DNA of 64,000 nucleotides from assembly GCA_017548605.1 (NCBI GenBank), contig JAFYZT010000026.1:43432-107431 (forward strand). The letters run 5' to 3'. The DNA is from Prevotella sp. (GTDB lineage Bacteria; Bacteroidota; Bacteroidia; Bacteroidales; Bacteroidaceae). A program made the position numbers and the translations under genes. A model generated the notes under the pieces. It did no database searches. It saw only the letters and a list, made by a program, of their open reading frames with translations, and was not told where the DNA came from. Shown one piece after another: positions 41,525 to 52,633 of the stretch (position 1 is the stretch's first letter; every line of letters begins with the position of its first letter).

Positions 41525-41586
41525 CATAAAAAAACCGAAAGTCAAGTGATAAGGAGAATTTATTTGTCTTTTTCGAGGAAAACGTT

Positions 41587-41594
41587 TATTTTTG
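41587..41594 (+). promoter_or_regulatory. Promoter -7 element of the NRPS gene
   Basis: TATTTTTG with TTTG about 20 bases upstream. The ATG at 41596 is too close to be transcribed with a leader, which favours the ATG at 41617. Confidence 0.6.
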
Positions 41595-41616
41595 CATGAT
41601 AAAGCACAACCGATTC

Positions 41617-44600
41617 ATGTCCAACGCGAAAGTACTTCACCGCACCTATCCTTTGCTGCCCTCACAGGAAGGCATCTACTTCGCCTGGATGTCACGTCCT
41701 GAGGCCACCTGCTGGAATCTTCCCGTATGCATGGCATACGACAACGAGATAAACAGCAAGCGTTTGTTGGGTGCAGTGCGCGCCATTGTTTCACATCGTG
41801 ACACGTTGCATTTGCGTTTGACCATAGATGACGACGGCCATCCCCGTCAGTACATCGACCCCGACATGTCTATCGATGTCATCTTCCGTGAGACAAGTGA
41901 GGCCGACGCCCTTGACTACCGTGACCACCATTTCGTTCGGCCTTTCGTTCCTATTGGCGATGAGCCTTTGTGTCGTTTTGAGATACTCCGTACCCCTGAG
42001 CACCACTACCTGCTGTTTGACATCCATCATCTGATTAGTGACGGTGTGACCATCTCGCATGTTTTTCTTGGACAAGATCTTCCCCGTGCCTATGCAGGGC
42101 TATCCCTTAACCGTCAAGACTATGGTATGCTCGATGAAGCATTGTCGCAAGAGTCATTTTTCAGCAGTGAGCGATACAAGACCGACCGACGGTACTATCA
42201 CGACCGTTTTCAGAACCACCCCTTCACCCCCTTGTGCAGCATACCCTCCAACCCGTGGGGACAATATTTGCGGTCCAGTACATTTGTGGCAAGAGAAGCT
42301 ATTGACCGATGGTGCGAGAAGAACGCAGTAGGTCCTAACATTCTTTTCTCCGCCGCTTTCAGTCTTGTACTCTCCCGTATGAGTGGAGAGCGCGAAGTAG
42401 CTTTTCTCACGTTGTTTCACGGTCGCAAGGACCGTCGTTTGCGCACAGCCTGGGGCATGTTTGTCAGCACCCTGCCCCAACTGTTGAGTCATGAGCCGAC
42501 CGACACGATTGGCATGCTGTTGAGTAAACACCGACAAGAGCAATTCCAAGCACTGCGGCACAGCGTTTACCCCCTTACCCATTTCTGCAACGACCTGCAC
42601 CGCGCCCCGATGACCACTTTCGGTTTTCAGAGCGGCCATATCCCCGAAAGCATCGCCTTAGACGGCCATCTTTATCCCGGCAAGCAGTTGACTCCCACCG
42701 AGAGCCGCAACGAGCTGAGTTGTATGATTTACGTGCATGAACGTGAATACGAGGTTCGTGTCGATGCCAGTTCGGCCTGGCATGACACCGCCTATCTGGA
42801 ACGTTTCGCCCAGGCCGTCGGCACCATCGTCAAGCAGTTGACTACACAGACGATGGACACCCGCCTCGACCAACTGTCGCTTATCGACGAAGTAGAACGG
42901 AAACAACTGACAAACCTTGGCATGGGAGAGCCGTTAGCATGGCCCGAAAAAGAGACCTTGGCTAGTCTCATACTACACCAATGCGAACGCACCCCATCGA
43001 GTATAGCCGTTTCTGATGAGCGTAGCAGCATGACCTACCTCCAGTTAAGTCAGGCGAGTGATCATCTGGCATGTTCCCTACGCCATCTTGGCATTGGCCA
43101 TGGTGACATTGTTGCCATCGCCCTCCCCCACGACCATCGTTTCCTCGTGACCACCCTCGGAGTGATGCGAAGTGGAGCGGCCTACCTACCCATTGACACC
43201 AGTCATCCCTCACTCCGCCGACAGCAGTTGTTGGAAGACAGTGGAGCACGACTATTGATAGATGACGTTTTTTACTCTTCTTTGGAAAGCGAATCCGGCA
43301 CTGTTGACAAGGCTCTGGAAGCCATTGACCTTTCCCGTCCCGACGACATGGCCTACCTCCTATACACCTCCGGTACAACCGGCACGCCCAAAGGAGTGAT
43401 GGTAAGCCATCGTGCCTTGTGCCATTTCGTTTTCGTCACTGCCCACCTGTGGCATCTTGACACGTCAAGCAGGATTAGCTGCCATGCATCGTTTGCTTTC
43501 GACGCCTCCGTAGAAGACCTCTACCCCGCCCTTACCTGCGGCGGCACCGTATATCTGCCTGACGAAGCAACCCGTCATGACCTGGAAGCCCTACGCCGTT
43601 TTATTGCCGACCACCATATCACCGGCGGCTGCTACACCCCCCAGCATGCCATGCTGCTCACCGAAGGGCATCCTTTGGATGTAGATTACCTATGCGTCGG
43701 GGGCGACAGGATGACACAAATACCATCGACCAGCGGTCGTTTATTGAACACATACGGCCCTACTGAGTTTACCGTCAATGCCACTTATCATGATGTGGAC
43801 AAGACCAGCGATGGCATCATACCTATCGGCCGTCCCCTACCCAACCTCTGGGCTTTCGTGATGGACTATGCCGGTCATTTGCTCCCCAAGGGTATGGTTG
43901 GTGAGTTATGCCTTGGCGGTCCCCAGAAAGCTATGGGCTATTGGAAGCGTCCAGAAGAAACCGCCCGACGGTTTACCTACGTGCCCTCTGTCAATATGAC
44001 CTTATACCATACCGGTGACTATGTTCGATGGAATGACAAGGGGTTGTTGGAGTTTATCGGTCGTCGTGACGAACAGTTGGAGTTGAACGGACAGCGCATT
44101 GAGCCGAGTGAGGTGGAGTCGATACTTTGTCGTCATGCTTCTATCAGTGATGCCTGTGTGAGCATTCAGACCTCGGGAGATCAAGGCATCCTCTGCGCAC
44201 ATTATATCTGCTCAGAGAAGTGGGCGGATATAGCACCATCGGAGGACATGGAACTATTGGAGAACGAATTAAAACACTATCTCCGTCAGCTTCTGCCTCC
44301 CTATATGATTCCACAGTTTTGGCAACGCGTGGAGCATCTGCCTTTGAATGCCAACGGCAAGATAGATAGGAAGCACCTAGCCCCTATCGTAAACAAAGCC
44401 CGTCATACCATTACAGCTCCTGCCAATGACATGGAAGAGCGGTTACTGTCGCTATTCCATCAGGTGCTGGAACGGGACGACGTTGGTGTCACCGAAAATT
44501 TCTTCGATGTTGGCGGCACCTCTCTAAGCGCGATGGAATTGGTATCGAAGGCCCGGGAAGACCATCTTGGTGTGGACTACGCCATGTTGTATCGCTGGGG

Positions 44601-45678
44601 AGATGTACGTTCGTTGTCGGCACACCTCGTCGAGTCTTCTGACAGCAAGCATGGGCTATGGCATATTCCACAAGGTTTCACCCCCATTCCCATTCCGTCC
44701 ATGGGGCAAAGCGGTAAACACCCCATCGGCGACCTGCTTCTCACCGGCAGCACAGGCTTTTTAGGCTGTCATGTATTGGCAAGATATCTTTGTCAAGAGC
44801 AAGGAACGGTCTATTGTCTTGTCAGGGACAGCGACGAGAATGCTGCCCGAGAACGATTGTTGCACATGGTTGAGACTATCCTTGGTGAAGAAGAAGCAGA
44901 ACGCCTTGCCCATCGTATTACAGTCATTATCAGCGACTTGTGCCGTGATGACGCATTTGAACCTTTTGAAGACATTCATGTGGACACGGTCATTCATTGC
45001 GCCGCCAACGTCAACCATTATGCACCTCAGGAAGCGTTGTGGGCTGTAAACGCAGAAGGCACCCGTCGTGTTCTCCGATATTGCCTGCGACATGGAATCC
45101 ATCTGCTGCATTTATCCACCTTGAGTGTCGGCGGCATCGACAAAGAAGGCCGTTTCATATCATTGACGGAACAAGAGTATTACAGGGGACAATCGTTTAT
45201 CGAGCCATACGATTACAGCAAGTTTATGTCTGAGCACATTGTGTTGGAAGCCATCGCTCATGACCACCTTTCCGCCACTATTGTCCGTCCAGGTTTTATC
45301 GTGCCGTCTGCCAGCCATCCCCATCTTGTTCCCAACCGTAACGACCTATTGATGTCGTTAGACCACATGGCTGACGATTTGGGCTTCCTACCCTGTCATT
45401 TAGCGTCCATACCCATAGCATACAGTTCTGTTGAAGAAGCAGCAGACGAAGTGCTTGCGATGTCAAAGCACCGGGATGGAAGCGTCATTCGCCATCTTCA
45501 CAATCTTCGCCACGAAACATTCGGCGAGATGATGCTTACGCGTCATCCCGCCTTACGATGGGTAGAAGAAGATGAATTCATGAGGCTATGCGGACCAGAG
45601 AAGATGCGGTCCTACAGTATCGGGGAATTGTCCCTTATTTCTTCCTTCGGAAGAGCAAGAACAGCAGCAGAAGGATAA
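41617..45678 (+). CDS. Single-module nonribosomal peptide synthetase, C-A-T-R
   Basis: 1353 residues. Condensation domain (1-~440) starts YPLLPSQEGIYFAWM and has the catalytic HHLISDG at ~136-142. Adenylation domain (~440-920): YTSGTTGTPKGV (~582), NTYGPTEFT (~711), GELCLGGPQKAMGYW, YHTGDYVRW and the lysine motif NANGKIDRK. Thiolation domain with phosphopantetheine Ser in DVGGTSLSAMEL (~966). Thioester reductase domain (~1035-1353) with Rossmann LLTGSTGFLGCHVL, HCAANVNHY, LSTLSVGG and YDYSK (YxxxK). It should couple an acyl or aminoacyl donor to one amino acid and release an aldehyde or alcohol with NAD(P)H. No second module, PPTase, transporter or tailoring gene lies next to it. Its end overlaps the convergent gene by 44 bases. 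Confidence 0.93.
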   Translation: MSNAKVLHRTYPLLPSQEGIYFAWMSRPEATCWNLPVCMAYDNEINSKRLLGAVRAIVSHRDTLHLRLTIDDDGHPRQYIDPDMSIDVIFRETSEADALDYRDHHFVRPFVPIGDEPLCRFEILRTPEHHYLLFDIHHLISDGVTISHVFLGQDLPRAYAGLSLNRQDYGMLDEALSQESFFSSERYKTDRRYYHDRFQNHPFTPLCSIPSNPWGQYLRSSTFVAREAIDRWCEKNAVGPNILFSAAFSLVLSRMSGEREVAFLTLFHGRKDRRLRTAWGMFVSTLPQLLSHEPTDTIGMLLSKHRQEQFQALRHSVYPLTHFCNDLHRAPMTTFGFQSGHIPESIALDGHLYPGKQLTPTESRNELSCMIYVHEREYEVRVDASSAWHDTAYLERFAQAVGTIVKQLTTQTMDTRLDQLSLIDEVERKQLTNLGMGEPLAWPEKETLASLILHQCERTPSSIAVSDERSSMTYLQLSQASDHLACSLRHLGIGHGDIVAIALPHDHRFLVTTLGVMRSGAAYLPIDTSHPSLRRQQLLEDSGARLLIDDVFYSSLESESGTVDKALEAIDLSRPDDMAYLLYTSGTTGTPKGVMVSHRALCHFVFVTAHLWHLDTSSRISCHASFAFDASVEDLYPALTCGGTVYLPDEATRHDLEALRRFIADHHITGGCYTPQHAMLLTEGHPLDVDYLCVGGDRMTQIPSTSGRLLNTYGPTEFTVNATYHDVDKTSDGIIPIGRPLPNLWAFVMDYAGHLLPKGMVGELCLGGPQKAMGYWKRPEETARRFTYVPSVNMTLYHTGDYVRWNDKGLLEFIGRRDEQLELNGQRIEPSEVESILCRHASISDACVSIQTSGDQGILCAHYICSEKWADIAPSEDMELLENELKHYLRQLLPPYMIPQFWQRVEHLPLNANGKIDRKHLAPIVNKARHTITAPANDMEERLLSLFHQVLERDDVGVTENFFDVGGTSLSAMELVSKAREDHLGVDYAMLYRWGDVRSLSAHLVESSDSKHGLWHIPQGFTPIPIPSMGQSGKHPIGDLLLTGSTGFLGCHVLARYLCQEQGTVYCLVRDSDENAARERLLHMVETILGEEEAERLAHRITVIISDLCRDDAFEPFEDIHVDTVIHCAANVNHYAPQEALWAVNAEGTRRVLRYCLRHGIHLLHLSTLSVGGIDKEGRFISLTEQEYYRGQSFIEPYDYSKFMSEHIVLEAIAHDHLSATIVRPGFIVPSASHPHLVPNRNDLLMSLDHMADDLGFLPCHLASIPIAYSSVEEAADEVLAMSKHRDGSVIRHLHNLRHETFGEMMLTRHPALRWVEEDEFMRLCGPEKMRSYSIGELSLISSFGRARTAAEG

Positions 45679-47104
45679 TAAATGCCGCCGCTGCGATGGC
45701 CCACGGCTCTTTCCATATAGGCTTATCGGCTGTGGCCGTTGCGTTTTCATCCACCGTCAGCGAGTCCAAAGCATCAGGTTGAGCAACTGCCTTGATGGAA
45801 TCGTTCATGTTCGGTTCGGGTGTTTCGTATTCCACCTTATATATATTGACGGCGTTGCCGCCACCGTTTTTCCGTCCTTGCGAAGTAACGATTACCCATT
45901 GTCCATCGCGTGAGATATCCAAGCCTACGGGATAAGAGTCACAGGGTATGCTGGCAATGGTCTGCATGGTTCGCGTATCGACCACGCACACTTCTGAAGC
46001 CGCGTTACAAGCCGCGAAGACAAAGTTGCCCGACGGTGATATTTCTATGGTACGTGCTCCGCCGCCCACCTTACACTCCTGCCAACCGGACACAGTGCCC
46101 AGTTTGCCGTTGATATTACGTGCCGCTTCGAGGAATTTCTCCAGTGGTATGCGCTGCACATATCCCGCATTGTTAATGCTGAGGTACAAGTATCCGTTTT
46201 TGATGACCAGGTGTCGAACGTTCGCCCTCATGCCCTGCAAGCGACCGAGGTATTCCATTTTCTCCATGTCAAAGACGGCGATGCCACCTGCTCCGCCCAT
46301 GCAGCACACAAGGAGGTATTTATCATCGGGTGTAAACACTGTTCCCCGAAGACAATAGCCACTGTTAATATCGCGGTTGATGGCTACCGACTTGCTGAAG
46401 TTGAGTGGAAGGACATAGTCGACCACCAATAATCTCTCATGGTGCCAGTCACGCGGGTTATTACTGTCGATGCGTATCAGTCCCACTGTATTATTTCCCC
46501 AGTGTGTGACAGCCACGTATTTGCCGTCGTGTGAAGCTGCAATCATCTTGGGTAGCGGTCCCGTTTCCATCAATAGAATAATCTCATCTGTCTCAGTGTC
46601 AACCACCGCCAATGCCGACGGGTCTTGGGCATTAATGTCGAAAGTACGACGGTAGTACGGTGCCCAGAAATAGCGTCCGTTATGCGTGAAACATCCCTCC
46701 ACGGGTTTTCCACCGAAGGTGTTGAGGTTGTTGGTATAATGAGTGAACGGATATAAGTCGGACGGTTTACTCCACAGCGAGTCTTTCGAAGGGTCACACT
46801 CATGGTGGATGGTTTTCAGTTTTTTGTTCGTCCCCATCTCAAAAACCACCGTAGCACATCCTTCGAGCGAGTTGACATAGTATTTCTTGCCGTTGGGATG
46901 GATGTTCACCGACTTCGGCGAATTGATGTCCGGTTCATGCGTCACCGCATCACCCATAAAGTTTTGCCGTTTATCAACATTGGTAATGGTGAGTGCTCCG
47001 TTGGAGGCTTTTACCTCTGTACCGAGTTTGGAATGGCGAAACACCTGCGCAGAGGCGGCCATGGCGAAGCAACACGCGATGGCTACGAGAAAGTATTTTT
47101 TCAT
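45635..47104 (-). CDS. YncE-like beta-propeller protein with signal peptide and C-terminal membrane anchor
   Basis: 489 residues. Signal peptide MKKYFLVAIACCFAMAASAQ, then propeller blades of the YncE/lactonase type (SVNIHPNGKKYYVNSLEGCATVVFEMGTNKKL; ALAVVDTETDEIILLMETGPLPKMIAASHDGKYVAVTHWGNNTVGLIRI; NFVFAACNAASEVCVVDTRTMQTIASIPCDSYPVGLDISRDGQWVIVTSQG). A polar stalk, then the helix WAIAAAAFIILLLLFLLFRRKK anchors the end. Periplasmic-facing, ligand unknown. Promoter at 47133-47140. Its 3' end overlaps the NRPS gene convergently. Confidence 0.85.
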   Translation of the reverse strand: MKKYFLVAIACCFAMAASAQVFRHSKLGTEVKASNGALTITNVDKRQNFMGDAVTHEPDINSPKSVNIHPNGKKYYVNSLEGCATVVFEMGTNKKLKTIHHECDPSKDSLWSKPSDLYPFTHYTNNLNTFGGKPVEGCFTHNGRYFWAPYYRRTFDINAQDPSALAVVDTETDEIILLMETGPLPKMIAASHDGKYVAVTHWGNNTVGLIRIDSNNPRDWHHERLLVVDYVLPLNFSKSVAINRDINSGYCLRGTVFTPDDKYLLVCCMGGAGGIAVFDMEKMEYLGRLQGMRANVRHLVIKNGYLYLSINNAGYVQRIPLEKFLEAARNINGKLGTVSGWQECKVGGGARTIEISPSGNFVFAACNAASEVCVVDTRTMQTIASIPCDSYPVGLDISRDGQWVIVTSQGRKNGGGNAVNIYKVEYETPEPNMNDSIKAVAQPDALDSLTVDENATATADKPIWKEPWAIAAAAFIILLLLFLLFRRKK

Positions 47105-49687: not shown

Positions 49688-52633
49688 ATGAAGACAGATA
49701 AACAAATGGCTGCGGCTGCTGCGGAATTTGCAGAGCGTTGGAAGGGCAGAGGATATGAGAGAGGCGAATCACAGCCTTTCTGGATTGACTTGCTTACAAA
49801 TGTCTTTGGCATTGAAACCCCGTCTGACGGCTTTATTACTTTTGAAGACCATCGTATGGTGGATGCTTCCAACTTCATTGACGGACGCATCCCATCGACA
49901 CGGGTATTGATTGAGCAGAAGTCTTTAGGCAAGGACTTGCGCAAGGGTATAGTTCAGGCTGATAAGTCTGTCCTTAATCCTTTTCAGCAGGCTCGCCGCT
50001 ATGTAGTCAGTCTTCCTGTATCAGAACATCCTCGTTGGATTGTGACATGTAACTTCTCTGAGTTTCTTGTCTATGACATGGAACAGCCCAATGGTGAGCC
50101 AGAGCAGATTTTACTTGAAAACTTAGGAAAAGAGTATTACCGCCTTATGTTCCTCGTGGATGCCAAGAACGAGCATCTGAGCAAGGAAATGGAAGTCTCG
50201 ATGCAAGCTGGCGAGATTGTAGGAAAGATTTACGAGGCATTGTTGAAGCAATACGATGATAATTCACCAGAAGCGCTGCGGTGGCTGAACATCCTTTGCG
50301 TTCGCATTGTGTTCTGTCTTTATGCCGAGGATGCAGGTGTGTTCACTCACGACCAGTTCCACGACTACCTTGTTCGCTATGATGCCGAGGATTTGCGCAG
50401 TGCGTTGATTCGTCTGTTCGAAGTATTGGATACACCCATTGAAAAGCGCAGCAAATATTTGAAAGACGACCTGAAGGCTTTCCCTTATACTAATGGCGGG
50501 CTATTCGAAGAGGAGATTGAAATCCCCCAGTTCACGGAAGAGCTGAAACAGACGCTGCTGCAGAATGCAAGCCTTGACTTTGACTGGAGCGAGATTTCGC
50601 CAACCATCTTCGGTGCTGTATTTGAAAGCACACTTAATCCTGAAACCCGTCGCAGTGGTGGCATGCACTACACTTCGATAGAAAACATTCATAAGGTCAT
50701 CGACCCGTTATTCCTCAATGACTTGCGCCGTGAACTTGACGAGATTTTGGAGGAGAAGGTAGAACGCCAACGTCAGAAGAAACTCGATACCTATCAAGAC
50801 CGTTTGGCATCACTGACATTTCTTGACCCTGCTTGTGGCTCTGGCAACTTCCTCACAGAAACTTATCTTTCTTTGCGCCGTCTGGAGAATGAAGTAATTC
50901 GTGAACGCTATCACGGACAGGCATTTCTTGGGTTTGAAGAAGTGAATCCCATCAAGGTGAGCATACAGCAGTTCTACGGCATTGAAATTAACGACTTTGC
51001 TGTGACCGTAGCCACAACTGCATTGTGGATTAGTGAAGCACAGATGTTAGCAGAAACAGAGAAGATTATCCGTCGCGACATTGATTTCCTACCGCTGAAA
51101 TCATATACCAATATCCGCGAGGGAAATGCACTGAGGATGGATTGGGACGTGATAGAAATACCTTCAAACATTCCTACTATATATGCCAATAATGTTCATC
51201 TGATTATTGAACCAAAAACAATGATGGCTAGTGATCCTATTGAGTATGACGAACTGAATGTAGTAGCCAATCGTTTTGATGGCGATGCAAAACCCAACGT
51301 GCAACGCTACCAAGTGCAATATGATTATATTATTGGTAATCCACCATTTGTTGGGTATGCTTATCAGACAAAAGAGCAAAAAGAGGATCTAAATGCTTTG
51401 ATGAAAGGGTTCGGTAATAACATCGACTATGTTTCAGGCTGGTATTATAAAGCAGCCCAGTTGATGAAATATAGTAAAAACACTCGTGCTGCTCTTGTAT
51501 CTACCAATAGTATAACCCAAGGAGAACAAGTAACTGCTATATGGAAACCAATGTTTGAAAGGTATGGCATACACTTTGATTTTGCACACCGCACATTCCG
51601 TTGGGATAGTGAAGCAAGTCTAAAAGCTCACGTTCATTGCGTCATTATTGGATTCAGCTCATGTGACAACCAAAAGGAAAAGGTTATTTATCTAAATGAC
51701 AATCAAAGTATTAGTGCAGAAAATATCAATGGCTATCTTTTGAATGCGCCCACTGCCTTTATTGAGAAAAGATCCAAGCCTTTATGTAATGTGCCACCAA
51801 TGATTAGAGGTAGTTCGCCAATTGATGATGGAAATCTTCTGTTGACTATAGAAGAAAAAACAAATTATCTCGAAAAGGAACCACAAGGAGATAAATTCTT
51901 GAGGCCTTTTATGATGGGTAAGGATTTAATCGATAGAAAACCTCGTTGGTGCTTTTGGCTTTTAGGTGCAAATCCTTCTGAACTCAAAATGTGTCCATTA
52001 TTGTTGAAACGTATTGAGGCTGTACGTAAATTCCGAATGGCAAGCAAAAAGTCGGCAACGGCACAAAGTGCAGCAACACCAACCCTCTTTGGCGAAATGC
52101 GCCCATGCGATAGCGATTATGTGGCAATACCGAAAGTTTCCTCGGAAAACAGACGCTATATCCCAATCGATTATCTAAAGGCAAACATCATTGCTGGAGA
52201 TAAACTATTCCAAATGCCCTATGCTACACTCTATCACTTTGGAGTTATCACCTCAAATGTTCAAATGGCATGGATGAGAGCTGTCTGTGGTAGGCTTAAG
52301 AGTGATTACAGCTATTCAAACACAATCGTCTACAACAATTTTCCTTGGCCTAATCCAACAGAAGAACAGAAGATAAAGATAGAACATACCGCCCAAGCCA
52401 TTCTTGATGCCCGTGCCCTCTATCCCGACTCGTCACTGGCCGACCTATACGACGAGCTGACGATGCCTGCAGAACTACGTCGTGCCCATCAGGACAACGA
52501 CCGCGCTGTTATGCAAGCATACGGTTTCCCTGTCAAAACTATGACCGAAAGCCAATGCGTAGCTGAGCTTTTCAAACTCTATCAAGAAATGTCAAACGTT
52601 GTGCAAGATTCACAACAAGGCAAAAGAAAATAG
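49688..52633 (+). CDS. MmeI-like type IIL restriction-modification enzyme
   Basis: 981 residues. N-terminal endonuclease with the D-x10-ExK pattern FIDGRIPSTRVLIEQKS (Asp ~64, Glu-Gln-Lys ~75-77), helical spacer (~150-330), gamma-class N6-adenine methyltransferase with motif I LDPACGSGNFL (~379) and motif IV GNPPFVGY (~549), then the target-recognition region and C-terminal helices (~640-981). The order matches the MmeI family, where one chain both methylates and cuts at a fixed distance from one recognition sequence, so no separate modification or specificity gene is needed. All visible active-site motifs are intact. The middle of the gene (~51,160-52,330) looks richer in A+T than its ends, consistent with exchange of the recognition part. 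BREX PglX-like enzymes lack the nuclease part and fit less well. Confidence 0.88.
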   Translation: MKTDKQMAAAAAEFAERWKGRGYERGESQPFWIDLLTNVFGIETPSDGFITFEDHRMVDASNFIDGRIPSTRVLIEQKSLGKDLRKGIVQADKSVLNPFQQARRYVVSLPVSEHPRWIVTCNFSEFLVYDMEQPNGEPEQILLENLGKEYYRLMFLVDAKNEHLSKEMEVSMQAGEIVGKIYEALLKQYDDNSPEALRWLNILCVRIVFCLYAEDAGVFTHDQFHDYLVRYDAEDLRSALIRLFEVLDTPIEKRSKYLKDDLKAFPYTNGGLFEEEIEIPQFTEELKQTLLQNASLDFDWSEISPTIFGAVFESTLNPETRRSGGMHYTSIENIHKVIDPLFLNDLRRELDEILEEKVERQRQKKLDTYQDRLASLTFLDPACGSGNFLTETYLSLRRLENEVIRERYHGQAFLGFEEVNPIKVSIQQFYGIEINDFAVTVATTALWISEAQMLAETEKIIRRDIDFLPLKSYTNIREGNALRMDWDVIEIPSNIPTIYANNVHLIIEPKTMMASDPIEYDELNVVANRFDGDAKPNVQRYQVQYDYIIGNPPFVGYAYQTKEQKEDLNALMKGFGNNIDYVSGWYYKAAQLMKYSKNTRAALVSTNSITQGEQVTAIWKPMFERYGIHFDFAHRTFRWDSEASLKAHVHCVIIGFSSCDNQKEKVIYLNDNQSISAENINGYLLNAPTAFIEKRSKPLCNVPPMIRGSSPIDDGNLLLTIEEKTNYLEKEPQGDKFLRPFMMGKDLIDRKPRWCFWLLGANPSELKMCPLLLKRIEAVRKFRMASKKSATAQSAATPTLFGEMRPCDSDYVAIPKVSSENRRYIPIDYLKANIIAGDKLFQMPYATLYHFGVITSNVQMAWMRAVCGRLKSDYSYSNTIVYNNFPWPNPTEEQKIKIEHTAQAILDARALYPDSSLADLYDELTMPAELRRAHQDNDRAVMQAYGFPVKTMTESQCVAELFKLYQEMSNVVQDSQQGKRK

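Follow-up and report, generated by a model that had tools for sequence, protein, structure and literature searches.

What might be made by a nonribosomal peptide synthetase (NRPS) gene that has no biosynthetic genes beside it? The question is raised by a 64,000-nucleotide stretch of Prevotella sp. DNA (contig JAFYZT010000026.1 of assembly GCA_017548605.1, positions 43,432 to 107,431, hereafter the window), in which one gene encodes condensation (C), adenylation (A), thiolation (carrier, T) and thioester reductase (R) domains in a single chain. The enzyme belongs to a scattered family of such stand-alone C-A-T-R synthetases, and the code of its A domain suggests a basic substrate, with lysine as the best candidate. 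The chances are judged about even that this one gene directs the single-module synthesis of an aldehyde or alcohol derived from an N-acylated basic amino acid, i.e., N-acyl-lysinal or N-acyl-lysinol. The gene and its domains are as follows; residue numbers of motifs and catalytic sites refer to the 1360-residue frame that begins at 41596.

41617..45678, + strand: stand-alone C-A-T-R NRPS, 1353 amino acids (P0001), from the open reading frame (ORF), Pfam domains, promoter-based start and translation
41641..42912, + strand: condensation domain, PF00668, residues 16-439, 180.2 bits
42025-42045, + strand: C motif HHLISDG, residues 144-150, by motif position
42976..44361, + strand: whole adenylation domain, PF00501 plus PF13193
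42976-43944, + strand: A-domain core, AMP-binding PF00501, residues 461-783, 228.6 bits
44110-44361, + strand: A-domain C-terminal subdomain, AMP-binding_C PF13193, residues 839-922, 34.8 bits
44437..44628, + strand: carrier (T/PCP) domain, PF00550, residues 948-1011, 37 bits
44734..45630, + strand: R domain, right edge approximate, NAD_binding_4 PF07993, residues 1049-1250, 126.6 bits

All of these domains exceed the curated Pfam cut-offs and follow one another in the order C, A, carrier, reductase. An earlier note on this DNA had described a complete module with intact core motifs and had named disrupted active sites as the finding that would undo that description; alignment of 43 C-A-T-R proteins, the window protein included, revealed no such disruption. 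In the C motif the second histidine and the aspartate are invariant (43/43) and the first histidine nearly so (42/43). The A-domain core motifs are intact, K922 included, and the phosphopantetheine attachment residue Ser976 (codon 44521-44523) is a serine in every member. The R domain keeps GSTGFLG, Thr1175, Tyr1205 and Lys1209, the latter three of which we take to be catalytic; the three glycines, the tyrosine and the lysine are found in all 43 proteins and the threonine in 42. With all four domains and their motifs in one chain, the protein is a reductive-release NRPS in general kind. The nearest solved structure for the T-R part is the AusA reductase (4f6l, 160 bits), and because of this closeness and the retained catalytic residues, reductive release is expected, either by two electrons to an aldehyde or by four to an alcohol as in MxcG. 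A chance origin of the domains is excluded by the AMP-binding and condensation scores and by a ratio of nonsynonymous to synonymous change (dN/dS) of 0.18 between the window gene and its orthologue in genome G363.

That comparison gave dN 0.241 and dS 1.32, near enough to saturation that the dN/dS ratios are rough; the comparison with the orthologue in genome G243 was saturated. By domain, dN/dS against G363 is 0.175 for C, 0.164 for A, 0.143 for T and 0.214 for R. Nine comparisons of neighbouring genes between the same two genomes give dN of 0.003-0.174, the fastest being a zinc-ribbon gene and a miaA-like gene; where a dS value was obtained, dN/dS does not exceed 0.09. The NRPS exceeds every neighbour measured in both dN and dN/dS, the margin in dN being 1.4-fold over the fastest: it is under purifying selection, yet changing faster than each of them. 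This speed is what might be said for a decaying or non-functional remnant that makes no product, an explanation of very small probability; a pseudogene is ruled out by the open frame, by dN/dS of 0.14-0.21 in all four domains and by the retention of the catalytic residues throughout the family.

The 43 distinct family proteins, mostly from metagenome-assembled genomes of Prevotellaceae and Bacteroidaceae, are what remained of 51 that passed filters for length and for a single A motif, after removal of seven that lack the R motif and one repeat (L076, identical with G243); four of them (L072, L074, L078 and L107) touch a locus edge. Counting the window's own genome, 21 of 398 genomes of the genus match the NRPS at E<=1e-240, seven of 301 genomes of the taxonomic family (in 4 of 30 genera) match at E<=1e-200, and among 295 genomes of the order its own is the sole match. 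A scan of named genomes kept at least 79 loci, and 48 of those listed are titled Prevotella or Prevotellaceae.

The amino acid substrate may be predicted from the A-domain code, which by alignment consists of D636, A637, E640, C679, C700, G702, T719, V727, N728 and K922 (DAECCGTVN plus K). In the family, DAECCGTVDK is the form of 30 of 43 proteins, the window form DAECCGTVNK of five, and DAEGTGVDDK of three; glutamate is universal at position 3, alanine occupies position 2 in 41 proteins and aspartate position 9 in 38. Table 5 of PMC12195549 lists 26 lysine codes, including those of MxcG (DAEDIGTVVK) and Pls-A (DAESIGTVVK), and six of the listed rows share 7 of their 10 positions with the window code, among them the mxcG A1 domain of Stigmatella, Pls-A and pyoverdine lysine domains. 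According to work on PosA (PMC10522769), the equivalent glutamate binds the side-chain amine, and replacement of methionine by alanine at position 2 raised the activity with lysine, alanine thus going with lysine. A pyoverdine module with the code DGEDHGTV was assigned to lysine by the authors of PMC3207962, with disagreement from a second predictor. Two observations weigh against lysine: the combination of cysteines at positions 4 and 5 with asparagine at position 9 occurs in none of the 26 listed codes, and in other clades, too, there are A domains that match one or another lysine code at 6 of 9 positions. The resemblance is therefore not specific by count alone, and lysine is a prediction; ornithine or arginine is also possible. 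The case for another substrate, whether ornithine, arginine or something unexpected, in an otherwise unchanged scheme draws on the PosA ornithine code DMEHNGTVSK, which has Asp, Glu, Gly, Thr, Val and Lys in common with the window code (PMC10522769), and on asparagine at position 9, seen in none of the lysine rows of Table 5 (PMC12195549); the alanine at position 2 in nearly the whole family favours lysine by the PosA rule, and such a substitution of substrate is regarded as somewhat unlikely. A literature search with six code strings found only the bacitracin lysine code, in a single paper, and nothing for DAECCGTV, codes printed with spaces being missed by such a search.

The identity of the partner joined to this amino acid depends on the C domain. 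In a FastTree phylogeny of 122 C domains (L103 being counted twice, and no characterised starter being included), the window domain falls within a clade of 54 tips, all N-terminal C domains, with support of 0.928, the inner nodes near the window tip being weakly supported; six further domains labelled as N-terminal, some of them from contig edges, lie outside it. To the same clade belong the first modules of NRPSs of about 4000 residues, and in three of four of these that were examined (L126, L135 and L127) an AMP-binding ligase is encoded a few kb upstream, in one case directly upstream, the locus of the fourth (L108) having just about 0.65 kb of upstream DNA. The upstream ligases and the shared N-terminal clade therefore favour an acyl starter.

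Several results weigh on the other side. The first C domain of another NRPS of the same genome, a dimodular one, is outside the clade, and an N-terminal place alone therefore does not define it. When a profile was built from 24 C domains of the family, it scored higher against the elongation domains TycC (164.7 bits) and LgrA (124.9 bits) than against the lipid starters RzmA (87.2 bits) and CdaPS1 (38.4 bits), with RzmA in turn above SrfA-C (69.8 bits) and TycB (63 bits); the solved C domains that score best are thus elongation types and not characterised lipid-starter (Cs) domains. The structures concerned are 7C1H for RzmA and 4JN5 for CdaPS1, as identified in PMC7804268. No acyl ligase gene adjoins the window NRPS gene, and no MbtH protein was found in the genome.

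A search for possible donors covered the 3.25-Mb assembly, which is 91.95% complete and carries the NRPS on contig 19. Condensation domains are confined to the window NRPS and the dimodular NRPS (three matches), and the AMP-binding matches (15) and carrier matches (8) revealed no protein with fused A and T domains, so the donor A-T protein suggested earlier did not appear; the carriers outside both NRPSs sit in frames of 80-92 residues. Because the window C domain lies in a chain-starting N-terminal clade and the assembly yielded no donor with fused A and T domains, the donor is somewhat more probably an acyl group. If instead a carrier on a separate protein supplied the C domain with an aminoacyl or peptidyl group, as in an AusA divided in two, the dipeptide aldehyde would be expected to yield a cyclic imine or pyrazinone, as the earlier note had allowed. 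The elongation-like C profile and the best NCBIfam match, which is to the C-A-T-R half of AusA (600 bits), are consistent with this, the carriers of the dimodular NRPS could in principle donate, and a small carrier on contig 32 (C32:153262) adjoins a separate ligase. The absence of a fused A-T protein among the matches, the all-N-terminal clade and the fact that the dimodular NRPS ends in an R domain of its own speak against it, and the split arrangement, weakened in this way, is considered unlikely.

Two other loci of the genome deserve description. Contig 20 carries a further reductive NRPS system, a complete cluster at 93-104 kb (L059), in which a 2455-residue C-A-T-C-A-T-R synthetase, the dimodular NRPS mentioned above, is accompanied by a MATE transporter, an AusB-like phosphopantetheinyl transferase (PPTase) and, nearby, a HATPase_c_2 protein. 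A MATE transporter fused to a HATPase_c_2 domain is encoded directly upstream of two of the NRPSs of about 4000 residues (L126:4165-5979 and L135:2425-4188). Contig 32 contains at 151-168 kb (L197) the ligase, small carrier proteins, an MMPL exporter and a ketosynthase, and looks like an aryl-polyene-type cluster.

The following pathway is proposed. A PPTase encoded elsewhere in the genome would convert Ser976 to the holo form, the AusB-like enzyme of the contig 20 cluster being the probable candidate; lack of a PPTase would have told against the enzyme, and two PF01648 matches above the cut-off are encoded, the AusB-like one scoring 86 bits, below the cut-off of 225 for that model. From its code, the A domain is predicted to load the carrier with a basic amino acid, L-lysine being the likeliest. 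The C domain, judging by its position, its phylogeny and the lack of a fused donor among the matches, would transfer an acyl group to the alpha-amine, most likely a fatty acyl group from coenzyme A or an acyl carrier protein. The R domain would then use NAD(P)H to release the thioester as N-acyl-lysinal, which might be reduced further to N-acyl-lysinol. The aldehyde or alcohol first predicted for this gene is thereby retained and sharpened to a derivative of a basic amino acid. Speculatively, such an aldehyde would suit the reversible covalent inhibition of proteases that cut after lysine or arginine.

The longest ORF of the gene (41596-45678, + strand, 1360 codons in the window ORF list) begins at the first ATG. 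The ATG at 41617 is the likely start and fits better, because the following promoter ends two bases before 41596:

41563..41594, + strand: promoter, Bacteroidetes-type, TTTG-N20-TATTTTTG, from the sequence, with matching elements in genomes G363 and G142

The pattern is one that we take to be typical of Bacteroidetes promoters, and it bears out the proposal that the gene has a promoter of its own. The G363 orthologue has a matching element at nearly equal distance upstream of the gene, and the G142 orthologue has TTTG-N20-TATCTTTG located farther upstream. Of 42 family loci searched over the 200 bases upstream, 10 (these two and that of the window among them) have the pattern TTG-N19-21-TAnnTTTG, where mononucleotide shuffling predicts 0.21; it was not seen within that distance in the other 32, G243 being one of these. 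A sigma-70 consensus promoter was rejected in favour of the Bacteroidetes pattern, its single match (0.6 expected) being on the opposite strand.

The surroundings of the gene agree with its description as having no biosynthetic neighbours. Its upstream flank encodes two zinc-ribbon proteins, a product without family match and, by inspection, MscL-like and GAPDH-like proteins; downstream lies the following gene, and after it an exonuclease-like gene:

45635..47104, - strand: convergent beta-propeller protein (YncE/lactonase-like), from the ORF list and Pfam, overlapping the 3′ end of the NRPS gene by 44 bases

No biosynthetic gene is among the flanking genes in the window. The orthologues found in the search that had been called for are 67% (G363), 55% (G142) and 38% (G243) identical to the window NRPS, and the MscL-like gene, the ORF without match and a zinc-ribbon gene are kept upstream in five genomes (those of the window, G363, G142, G243 and the locus L077), as are two further genes farther off. 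When ORFs of at least 100 codons, up to about 8 kb on each side where the locus allowed, were compared among 40 family loci, the commonest neighbour was present in just six; a clustered pathway with a recurrent neighbour is thus ruled out, and solitude is the rule for this family, not an accident of the window genome. The beta-propeller recurs near the G363 and G142 orthologues, at 93% and 91% identity respectively, and no counterpart was seen at the G243 or L077 locus; the propeller serves as a marker of synteny and is not assigned to the pathway.

Other features of these loci may be recorded. A paralogue of the beta-propeller, 78% identical, is encoded on contig 16 of the same genome (145729-147006). 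In the G142 locus (L051:3994-7587) a protein with a carbohydrate-binding module and dockerin is encoded between NRPS and propeller, and the NRPS itself has a repetitive insertion between the C and A domains (residues ~445-520) that is absent from the window gene. About 4 kb from the window NRPS, at 49688-52633, is an MmeI-like combined restriction-methyltransferase with five MmeI Pfam domains, for which there is no match in L193, a locus reaching 5 kb past its propeller gene; L051 ends too early to compare.

If the pathway is as proposed, one gene and a PPTase are enough for common bacteria of the rumen and gut to produce a reactive acyl-amino aldehyde, which could bear on the breakdown of protein in the rumen. 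A broader conjecture, put forward as doubtful, is that Prevotella-type one-gene pathways make N-acyl-lysinals that inhibit trypsin-like or lysine-specific proteases, the fixed locus in one lineage and the fast-changing enzyme reflecting an arms race over proteolysis. The family offers a large alignment with a nearly uniform lysine-type code, and genes of about 4 kb can escape filters on cluster size. Rumen NRPS clusters are already known in bulk, and the network of one survey took only those of at least 10 kb (PMC8241843). A stand-alone lysine-type C-A-T-R family was not found described in the literature searched, a search on rumen Prevotella nonribosomal peptide clusters with aldehyde found nothing, and the word lysinal was absent among the matches listed.

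Comparison with known systems places the enzyme nearest to the second half of AusA in sequence and, by score, in neither the AusA nor the MxcG family. The AusA model NF047350 (cut-off 2500 bits) is the best NCBIfam match, at 600 bits (residues 16-1332, model positions 993-2314 of 2373). AusA has the architecture A-T-C-A-T-R, of which the window NRPS lacks the first A-T module; AusA provides the nearest solved R domain and the genome encodes an AusB-like PPTase, but the window NRPS gene is not adjacent to its PPTase. The gut reductive NRPSs that make ruminopeptin and its relatives follow a similar logic of acylated amino aldehydes in gut bacteria (PMC8518294). The window NRPS has a single module, and neither a transporter nor a PPTase is linked to it; the C-A-T-C-A-T-R synthetase of its own genome is the closer analogue of the ruminopeptin type. 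NRPSs of that type are dimodular. With Lys2 (alpha-aminoadipate reductase, TIGR03443) the enzyme has an A-T-R core in common, to which it adds a C domain and a lysine-type code; identity with such a reductase is ruled out by the C domain and by a score of 171.8 bits, far below the cut-off of 1030.

MxcG resembles the window NRPS in being one chain, with a match that extends from C to R, and in having a similar lysine code (7/10); its model NF038078 (cut-off 2300 bits) gives 426 bits (residues 17-1254, model positions 4-1291 of 1442). According to PMC8400222, MxcG releases an aldehyde with reduction to the alcohol and acylates both amines of lysine. The shared architecture and code, together with that activity, might suggest that here too both amines are acylated, giving a neutral diacyl-lysinol that would be lipid-like rather than a protease inhibitor. 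No direct evidence of a second acylation was found, and of the 11 AMP-binding ORFs outside the NRPSs eight were scanned, none of which attains the cut-off of the dihydroxybenzoate (DHB)-AMP ligase model TIGR02275, MxcC, MxcD and MxcF not having been searched for; the one score in their match lists that exceeds this cut-off belongs to a FadD-type model. Double acylation is accordingly viewed as quite improbable, below the single acylation proposed above. There are, unlike for MxcG, no siderophore genes around the window NRPS, and with no DHB ligase among the ORFs scanned, a myxochelin siderophore synthetase is not supported. The kind of enzyme is therefore known, MxcG having the same architecture and a similar substrate code, and the stand-alone family to which the window NRPS belongs is apparently new.

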